Below are positions 22,479 to 25,057 of a stretch of 64,000 nt of DNA, in pieces (within the stretch, counting starts at the first letter, position 1; every line of letters begins with the position of its first letter). The notes beneath the pieces are model-generated. The model searched no databases, had not been told where the DNA came from, and saw only the letters and a program-made list of their open reading frames with translations. The DNA is taken from positions 62,001-126,000 of the forward strand of contig JAPLAU010000028.1 in NCBI GenBank assembly GCA_026393115.1. Reading direction: 5' to 3'. The position numbers and the translations under genes are program-made. The stretch comes from Actinomycetota bacterium (GTDB lineage: Bacteria; Actinomycetota; Actinomycetes; S36-B12; CAIYMF01).

Positions 22479-23450
22479 GTGGCGTCATCAATTCGTGCAT
22501 CACGCACACCCCTGTTCGTGGGTGCGGCGTGTGCATTGTCAGCGCTCACGATGATGGTGGCGCCGGTTACCGTATCGCGTGCCGCTGCTGCTCCCCCTGA
22601 TTCGGGATGCAGTACCGATCCCACGGTCGCTCGGTTGGCTGTCAGAGATGCGCGCGACAGTGGTGACATCACCACTGCCCAAGCAGCCTCAATCGAGCGT
22701 GACCTTCGGTCGCGACTAGCAACGCGCGCTCACTCATCGACCGCACTACGAACTCGCGCCTCACTCTCAACGTTGGCCCTCGCCGCTTCGTCGGTCACCG
22801 TGCCGGTCTACGTGAATGTCATTCGCAGCGGTACCGCCGCTTCGCAAGGCAACGTCACCGACGCAATGGTGAGTGCGCAAATCGCGGCGCTTAACACCGC
22901 ACACCGCAATGCGCACAGCGCGTTCGTGTTCAAGTTGGTATCAACATCGCGCACCACCAACACGGTGTGGTTCACGGCGACTCAGGGAAGTGTTGCCGAG
23001 TCGGCGATGAAGCGATCGTTGCATCGTGGTGGAGAGAACGCCCTTAACCTCTACACCCTCAACGTGCCAGGGGTGCTCGGTTGGTCGACCCTGCCGTCAT
23101 CGGCGGCCTCGAACCTGCTCAATGACGGCGTCGTGGTGCGGTTCACCACGCTGCCGGGCGGAACGTATGTGGGCTACAACTCCGGCGACACAGCAGTGCA
23201 CGAGGTAGGTCACTGGTTCGGTCTCTATCACGTGTTCCAGGGCGGTTGCTCAACTCCTGGCGACTACATCGGTGACACGCCGGCGCAGGCCTACGCCGAG
23301 TACTCGTGTGGGTTCAGCGACTCGTGTACGGCGTCAGGAACTGACCCGGTCAACAACTTCATGGGCTATACCCCCGACTCCTGCATGTACACCTTCACTA
23401 CGGGTCAAGCCACGCGTATGTCTGATGCGTGGGTGGCCTACCGCGCCTGA
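22479..23450 (+). CDS. Secreted pappalysin-like (M43) zinc metalloprotease
   Basis: 323 residues from GTG 22479. A signal peptide ends near SRAAAA-PPD, a pro-region runs to about residue 100, and the catalytic part holds HEVGHWFGLYH (H241, E242, H245, H251) and the Met-turn region NFMGYTPDSCMYTFT. The Cys pattern (GGCSTPGDYIGDTP, YSCGFSDSCT) is typical of M43B proteases. It should cut extracellular proteins. Possible promoter: TTGATA, 17 bases, TGTCAT, six bases, GTG. Confidence 0.9.
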   Translation: MASSIRASRTPLFVGAACALSALTMMVAPVTVSRAAAAPPDSGCSTDPTVARLAVRDARDSGDITTAQAASIERDLRSRLATRAHSSTALRTRASLSTLALAASSVTVPVYVNVIRSGTAASQGNVTDAMVSAQIAALNTAHRNAHSAFVFKLVSTSRTTNTVWFTATQGSVAESAMKRSLHRGGENALNLYTLNVPGVLGWSTLPSSAASNLLNDGVVVRFTTLPGGTYVGYNSGDTAVHEVGHWFGLYHVFQGGCSTPGDYIGDTPAQAYAEYSCGFSDSCTASGTDPVNNFMGYTPDSCMYTFTTGQATRMSDAWVAYRA

Positions 23451-23488: not shown

Positions 23489-24964
23489 ATGCTGAGTCGA
23501 ATAGCGCGCGTGGTGGCGGTCGCGAGCGCCGGTTGCATTGTTGCGACCGTTGCCGCCGTGGCGCCAGTTCAGGCGGCGCCAGAAGCTTTCAGCCGGGTAA
23601 CACCGTTGGCCGGAGCCACGTTGCCCACCCAGCTCATCGGCGTGGGTTCTGCTCAGCAGCTGATCGTCGTCACCGATCCCACGCCAACGATGTATGCCAC
23701 GCTCACCGCGTACCAAAAGGTCGGTGCGCTCTGGCATCGCATGCTCGGTCTGATGACGGCTCGCATTGGGCGAAATGGATTTGTGAAAGCGGCCAATCGT
23801 GTTCAGGGCACCGGTACTACACCGACCGGTTCGTTCGTACTGGGCCCTTCGTTCGGTAGCGGCACTTCTCCCGGAACGGCAATGCCGTACCGCAGATTCG
23901 ATTCGACCGATCGTTGGGTGTACGACAAGTCCGATCCGTCGACCTATAACACCTATCAACCGTCAGGAAACTGGGGCAACCAGGAAAAGTTGAGCCAAAT
24001 CAAATACGGCCAGTATCGATACGCCGTGGTTATTGGATACAACCACCCCGTGATGTCGATGTCAGCGAGCGCGCGACCGCATGCGTCGGCTGGAGTTAAC
24101 ACCAAACTCGGCGGCGGAATCTTCCTGCATGTCACCAAGTACATTCCAGGCAACTCGCACTCAGAGCCCACTGCGGGTTGTGTGAGCGTTGACTTACTGC
24201 AGATGAAGGCCCTGCTGAAGTGGCTCAATCCTGCGAAGAACCCGCGAATCATTATCGGTTCGCGATCAACAATCGTTCGATCGTCAGCGCTCAATGCGTC
24301 ATCGGCGGTGACGCCGCTCATGACCACGCGCACCATCGGCTATTCACGTGCGGGCCGAGCGATCATGGCCTACCACCGCGCGGGGTCTAGCCCGACTCGC
24401 GAACTTGTTGTGATCGGAGTTATTCACGGCGATGAGCGCAAGGGTTTGGCGGTGACCACGTTACTCACGTCGCTCAAACTTCCGACCAATCTCGGGGTGT
24501 GGATTATTCCCACCATGAACCCCGATGGCATGCGTTCAGACGTGCGCGGAAATGCGCGGGGTGTCGATCTCAATCGCAATTTCCCTTACTCATGGCGCAG
24601 TGCAAATGCGGGCACCTCGCGTTGGTCGGGTCCCTCTGCGGCAAGTGAACCTGAGACGAAGGCAGTGAAGGCCTTCCTCTCGAAGGTCAAACCGAAACTG
24701 GTAGTCATCTTCCATTCGCCGCTCGGCGGTGTTGACAGTTACGGAGCCAAATCACTCAAAACCGTTAAGCGATTTGCGAAGGCGGCCGGCTACCCCGTCG
24801 GTTACTTCGATTGCGCCGGCGGCTGTCACGGCACGCTGACCCAGTGGTTCAACCATTCGTACAGCGGGCAGGCGATTACCTTCGAGTTCGGGTCGGCGAC
24901 TCCGTCACGATCGTCGATCCAACGAGTGGCTACTGCCCTCACGTCGGTTGCCTCATCGCTCTAG
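23489..24964 (+). CDS. Secreted L,D-transpeptidase (YkuD-like) fused to M14 zinc carboxypeptidase
   Basis: 491 residues. The signal peptide is followed, in residues 45-260, by a YkuD-like domain of the COG3786 type with catalytic HVTKYIPGNSHSEPTAGCV (Cys in TAGC at about 231). Residues 280-490 form an M14 carboxypeptidase/MpaA-like domain: zinc ligands in IHGDERKG (about H313 and E316), RGNARGVDLNRNFPYSW for substrate binding, a later zinc His in FHSPLGG and the general base Glu in TFEFGS. Both domains normally act on peptidoglycan stem peptides: one cross-links or exchanges at meso-diaminopimelate and the other cuts the gamma-Glu-mDAP or a C-terminal bond. I do not recall this fusion as common. 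GAGGT and GACAAT both precede the ATG. Confidence 0.87.
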   Translation: MLSRIARVVAVASAGCIVATVAAVAPVQAAPEAFSRVTPLAGATLPTQLIGVGSAQQLIVVTDPTPTMYATLTAYQKVGALWHRMLGLMTARIGRNGFVKAANRVQGTGTTPTGSFVLGPSFGSGTSPGTAMPYRRFDSTDRWVYDKSDPSTYNTYQPSGNWGNQEKLSQIKYGQYRYAVVIGYNHPVMSMSASARPHASAGVNTKLGGGIFLHVTKYIPGNSHSEPTAGCVSVDLLQMKALLKWLNPAKNPRIIIGSRSTIVRSSALNASSAVTPLMTTRTIGYSRAGRAIMAYHRAGSSPTRELVVIGVIHGDERKGLAVTTLLTSLKLPTNLGVWIIPTMNPDGMRSDVRGNARGVDLNRNFPYSWRSANAGTSRWSGPSAASEPETKAVKAFLSKVKPKLVVIFHSPLGGVDSYGAKSLKTVKRFAKAAGYPVGYFDCAGGCHGTLTQWFNHSYSGQAITFEFGSATPSRSSIQRVATALTSVASSL

Positions 24965-24973: not shown

Positions 24974-25057
24974 ATGAGCCCTCGCACCCGTCGCATCGCC
25001 ACCATTGTGGTGCTGTTGGGCCTGCTCGCAGCCGTTGCGCTGGCGGCAATTCGCTGA
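24974..25057 (+). CDS. 27-residue single-span membrane peptide
   Basis: ATG to TGA encodes MSPRTRRIATIVVLLGLL followed by AAVALAAIR: a basic start, one hydrophobic helix of about 19 residues and an Arg end. The perfect TAGGCT-N6-ATG spacing seen at other genes of this window supports a real start. It sits alone between two larger genes, 9 bases after the stop of the transpeptidase fusion. Function unknown; small regulators of membrane enzymes look like this. Confidence 0.55.
   Translation: MSPRTRRIATIVVLLGLLAAVALAAIR

Follow-up and report, generated by a model that had tools for sequence, protein, structure and literature searches.

The closest described counterparts of the gene analyzed here are pairs of separate enzymes of the Gram-negative periplasm, Pgp2 and Pgp1 of Campylobacter jejuni and Csd6 and Csd4 of Helicobacter pylori, in which a YkuD protein and an M14 protein make successive cuts on mDAP-containing peptide stems. 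Previous work showed that in C. jejuni the tripeptide made by Pgp2 is the substrate of Pgp1, and that the two genes co-occur and are neighbors in several genomes (PMC3961634). The cut made by Pgp1, which converts monomeric tripeptides to dipeptides (PMC3310789), is the same as that of MpaA, which cleaves the gamma-D-Glu-mDAP bond in murein tripeptide (PMC6403190). These M14 relatives act on gamma-D-Glu-mDAP of uncross-linked stems (PMC6403190, PMC3310789), and tetrapeptides are also cut by MpaA-type enzymes (PMC3310789). Among YkuD proteins, Csd6, Pgp2 and Bd1075 of Bdellovibrio are all LD-carboxypeptidases (PMC8938487, PMC4599014, PMC3961634). Many LD-transpeptidases have Arg two residues beyond the catalytic Cys, at Cys+2 (PMC8938487, PMC10653827); Csd6, Pgp2 and DpaA have Ala there (PMC8938487).

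In the window, the whole 64,000-nucleotide stretch of DNA from an uncultured actinobacterium that was analyzed, the YkuD and M14 superfamilies meet in one gene of the forward strand, whose reading frame is open from an ATG at 23489 to a stop at 24964 and encodes 491 aa. By inspection, the N-terminus MLSRIARVVAVASAGCIVATVAAVAPVQA resembles a signal peptide, predicted at residues 1–29 (23489–23575, +) from its basic start, hydrophobic core and A-x-A-like end, VQA; stand-alone homologs of either half begin alike. Lipoprotein anchoring via Cys16 was considered and rejected, S-A-G-C being a poor lipobox that lies inside the hydrophobic stretch. There follow a YkuD domain with an N-terminal strand region (residues ~46–257; 23624–24259, +), a linker (residues 258–276; 24260–24316, +) and an MpaA-like peptidase M14 domain (residues 277–491; 24317–24961, +). 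The linker was placed from homolog boundaries, as first-half homologs stop at about residue 265 and second-half homologs start at about residue 275. Pfam YkuD (PF03734) matches residues 91–249 with an E-value of 6.8e-7 (30.4 bits versus a cut-off of 23.4) and Pfam Peptidase_M14 (PF00246) residues 277–410 with an E-value of 6e-18 (65.9 bits versus 21.6); Pfam found no further domain in the fusion protein, including no PG-binding domain. AlphaFold2, given the full protein and an alignment of two rows at 91% identity, returned a pLDDT of 28. The first-pass annotation had described an L,D-transpeptidase-type (YkuD) domain and an M14 peptidase in one secreted protein. That architecture stands, with both Pfam matches above their cut-offs and the same fusion in a second species, and the ORF is predicted to encode a single secreted polypeptide joining the two domains.

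The second species of the genus (L002/L031) has the fusion at 91% identity with gene order kept. Between the two species dN/dS is 0.07 for the YkuD half and 0.11 for the M14 half at a dS of ~0.47, so that both halves are maintained under purifying selection. The same fusion in a second species, together with the low dN/dS, rules out an assembly or frameshift artefact. The earlier suggestion that the fusion might mark a frequent actinobacterial family was not borne out: among the matches listed for the order's 166 genomes, just two, both of one genus, showed the fused architecture, and no further fused copy appeared in samples of 394 genomes of the class and 396 of the phylum. Outside the genus, the two halves are separate secreted proteins in the genomes sampled. 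Nor was a fused copy found in plasmid or phage records, and a scan of viral contigs gave no YkuD relatives and only distant M14 relatives. The fusion is thus rare and, as far as sampled, confined to one genus. No report of a YkuD-M14 fusion was found in the open-access literature; the domain pairing is a modest novelty, a combination of two known enzyme kinds.

The first-pass annotation had also noted catalytic motifs in both halves, and their catalytic residues proved invariant. In the YkuD motif, H214...T228-A-G230-C231, residues H214, T228, G230 and C231 are the same in the fused half and 21 stand-alone homologs (n = 22), and A229 varies. PF03734 is matched by all 22 of these family members, and the YkuD assignment, which the annotation had tied to the presence of a YkuD fold, therefore holds by sequence. 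The catalytic His214 codon lies at 24128–24130 (+) and that of Cys231 at 24179–24181 (+), in the context TAGCVS, where Ser233 occupies the position that is Arg in many transpeptidases (PMC8938487). Between catalytic His and Cys there is a fusion-specific insertion of seven residues, TKYIPGN (216–222; 24134–24154, +), identical in both fusion-bearing species, which brings the His-Cys distance to 17, compared with 9–10 in the 21 stand-alone homologs. In the M14 half, H313, E316, R353, N362, R363, H409 and E466 are invariant across the fused half and 20 stand-alone homologs (n = 21); we take these to include the metal ligands, Asn-Arg pair and catalytic Glu typical of zinc carboxypeptidases. His313 and Glu316 of the HGDE motif (24425–24436, +) and His409 (24713–24715, +) would be the zinc ligands and Glu466 (24884–24886, +) the catalytic Glu, and for Asn362-Arg363 (24572–24577, +) a carboxylate-binding role is presumed from the carboxypeptidase A family. 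The residue beside His409 is Ser in the fusion but almost always Gln in homologs. A Cys442-x-x-x-Cys446 pair (24812–24832, residues 442–448) is common to most stand-alone actinobacterial homologs of the order and is likely a disulfide of an exported enzyme.

MpaA is known as an intracellular peptide-recycling enzyme. The NCBIfam MpaA model (NF007897) matches residues 279–468 of the fusion with an E-value of 1.4e-20, at 73.3 bits versus an equivalog cut-off of 157, which places the M14 half by sequence among MpaA relatives, below equivalog level. With the family profile, MpaA structures were reached at E-values of 1.5e-28 (5hxd) and 7e-25, far above other carboxypeptidases, and E. coli MpaA was matched at 103 bits. 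The fused half shares the M14 family, the HGDE, NRNF and FHxPL motifs and the catalytic Glu with MpaA of E. coli and Vibrio; it differs in that MpaA stands alone, whereas the fused half is predicted to be exported and is joined to a YkuD domain. The genome's MurE carries a DNPR motif, presumably the mark of a DAP-type enzyme, and an mDAP-containing wall is therefore expected. Given such a wall and the MpaA-like sequence, the M14 half should trim peptide stems. Opening of cross-links by the M14 half is not expected from its sequence relationships.

The role of the YkuD half is less plain. The first-pass annotation had it forming 3-3 links or exchanging D-amino acid ends at mDAP while the M14 half cuts stems, so that a single enzyme would open and re-form cross-links and remodel the wall locally. 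The Cys/His pair of a YkuD domain is intact, the domain family is named after transpeptidases, and the stand-alone relatives are annotated as 'L,D-transpeptidase family protein'. When used at E-values up to 10, however, the family profile reached three YkuD structures only, Bd1075 (7o21; 1e-4), Csd6 (4xzz; 0.18) and Pgp2 (6xj6; 0.67), the latter two not significant alone, and matched no transpeptidase structure, although the same collection contains many. This was shown by a control, the genome's LdtMt2-like paralog, which matched LdtMt2 in that collection at 1e-63. A second control, an ErfK-like paralog used as a single sequence, found no relevant structure either, so the missing transpeptidase matches mean little alone.

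Sequence around the catalytic Cys points the same way as the profile. None of the 22 family members has the Arg that E. coli LdtA-E carry at Cys+2, its place being taken by Ala, Ser or Gly; Bd1075, the nearest solved YkuD structure by profile, likewise lacks the Arg. The pattern T-x-G-C-[IV]-[A/S], T-A-G-C-V-S in the fusion, agrees with Csd6 and Pgp2. But Arg is missing in mycobacterial-type transpeptidases as well, and because the genome's own LdtMt2-like and Fn3-type paralogs have Gly and Asn there, its absence is a hint and no proof. In a local comparison with E. coli YkuD proteins, DpaA scored 3.0 bits and the transpeptidases 0 to -2 bits, which does not separate them convincingly. LdtMt2-type LD-transpeptidases share the YkuD Cys/His chemistry with the fused half but, unlike it, have Ig-like domains and an S-H-G-C motif. 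The presence of an aromatic ahead of the catalytic His (Phe212) was tried as a carboxypeptidase mark and dropped, since LdtD and the LdtMt2-like paralog share this feature. The 1,3-cross-linking LdtGo type was set aside on its reported distribution, which is limited to Alpha- and Betaproteobacteria with a few relatives (PMC10864386). The fusion was not classed with the Csd6/Pgp2/Bd1075 group, because by Pfam it lacks the C-terminal NTF2 domain of that group, whose place the M14 domain occupies; Bd1075 carries NTF2 and has no M14 (PMC8938487). Against the remodeling model stand also the four other YkuD proteins already in the genome and the fact that M14 enzymes of the MpaA kind, which cut uncross-linked stems, are not known as cross-link openers. 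With no transpeptidase signature and a profile that reaches only LD-carboxypeptidase structures, we consider a transpeptidase role for the YkuD half rather doubtful, and with it the opening and re-forming of cross-links by one enzyme.

We therefore favor, at about an even chance, the proposal that the fusion is a secreted bifunctional trimmer that shortens stems sequentially from tetra- to tri- to dipeptide. The YkuD half (Cys231/His214), acting as an LD-carboxypeptidase, would cleave a tetrapeptide stem between mDAP3 and D-Ala4, producing a tripeptide whose mDAP carboxylate is free. In the MpaA-like zinc half, Asn362 and Arg363 would grip that carboxylate, and the zinc and Glu466 would cleave the gamma-D-Glu-mDAP bond, so that mDAP is released and the stem is left as a dipeptide. 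The linker would hold the second active site beside the product of the first. The YkuD step need not come first, since MpaA-type enzymes also cut tetrapeptides; an S66 (LdcA-type) protein encoded in the genome could also supply tripeptides. Such an enzyme is likely to serve wall maturation or turnover, perhaps cell shape, or mDAP salvage.

The trimmer would carry out on one chain what Pgp2 with Pgp1, or Csd6 with Csd4, do as separate proteins. The likeness is one of superfamilies and steps, as the similarity of the YkuD half to Pgp2 and Csd6, which have an NTF2 domain, is very weak, and the fused M14 half is nearer MpaA than Pgp1 or Csd4. The two actinobacterial families are also paired outside the genus. 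An independent genomic pairing of both families is seen in a genome of the same class (G860; L093:3104-5490), whose separate YkuD and M14 genes meet tail to tail and share 4 bp. Across 60 relatives the families occur together more often than expected: 25 genomes have both, 19 have neither, and 7 and 9 have a single one (Fisher p = 6e-4; p = 0.007 for well-completed genomes; kinship is ignored in both). Gene fusions often join enzymes of one route. More tentatively, with a probability that we would put clearly below even, the protein may be the first single-chain LD- plus DL-carboxypeptidase, with the product handed from site to site and the TKYIPGN loop adapted to the neighboring domain.

The neighborhood of the gene bears on a different use. 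A secreted M43-type (pappalysin-like) metalloprotease is encoded upstream on the same strand, at 22479–23450 (+), and its gene stops 38 bp short of the fusion gene, a position kept in the second species; the two genes are a possible operon. Directly downstream, at 24974–25057 (+), lies the gene of a 27-aa basic, hydrophobic peptide, MSPRTRRIATIVVLLGLLAAVALAAIR, which is conserved at the peptide level in the second species. The earlier description of an adjacent secreted protease and membrane peptide is thus correct, and both are conserved. PADLOC gave no match, and hence no sign of a defense system. With a secreted protease next door, both halves of the fusion could hydrolyze peptidoglycan fragments of other bacteria, releasing D-Ala and mDAP as nutrients alongside the M43 protease. 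Predicted secretion, the conserved gene order and the lack of a PG-binding domain that would tether the protein to its own wall fit such scavenging. However, no such protease was seen beside the stand-alone relatives of other genomes, and co-transcription of the M43 and fusion genes is only putative; we regard scavenging as improbable.

The origin of the two halves bears on the possibility of a neutral fusion. The direct homologs of each half are stand-alone actinobacterial YkuD proteins and secreted M14 proteins, mostly 34–52% identical. The YkuD homologs are separate genes without the seven-residue His-Cys insertion, and some bear other additions, e.g., CWB2. One such homolog, from a different family within the class (G593; L099:1-1893), continues into three CWB2 cell-wall-binding repeats, showing that the YkuD family tolerates C-terminal partners. 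In trees, good support (96/94) sets the YkuD half apart from the copies present in the genus's own family; the M14 half clusters with stand-alone proteins of two families of the same class, f87 and f98 (support 89/91). Proteins of f87 and f98 are also the closest by identity among the matches listed, at 48–52% for M14 and 46–47% for YkuD. These relationships suggest that both halves were acquired from outside the family, separately from resident genes. The genome's only M14 is the fused one. Its four further YkuD proteins (L074, L075, L078) comprise the LdtMt2-like paralog, which matches the LdtMt2 structure at an E-value of 2e-63, and, by inspection, one with fibronectin-like (Fn3) and binding parts and two adjacent short ErfK-like proteins with GGCVR motifs.

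A chance joining of two unrelated secreted enzymes that act independently would account for trees that set each half outside the copies of the family to which the genus belongs, and for a fusion seen, among the matches listed, in one genus only. It accords poorly with retention of the fusion over a dS of ~0.47 with both halves constrained, and with the pairing of the two families elsewhere (Pgp2/Pgp1, the co-occurrence in 60 relatives, and the tail-to-tail genes of G860), and a neutral fusion seems to us unlikely too. Very improbable is a DpaA-like amidase, in which the YkuD half would free a protein or other group from mDAP before the M14 half trims the stem: DpaA also lacks the Arg (it has Ala) and has a His-Cys distance of 8, near the 9–10 of the stand-alone members, but its match is 3 bits only, its substrate, Braun's lipoprotein, is Gram-negative, and the His-Cys loop of the fusion is longer (17).

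Two-step trimming of peptide stems is known from helical Gram-negatives. If the fusion is indeed a two-step trimmer, it would place a large and poorly characterized actinobacterial YkuD family, annotated as transpeptidases, in the same pathway as an MpaA-like peptidase, and many 'L,D-transpeptidase family' proteins of the class would be predicted to be stem trimmers.
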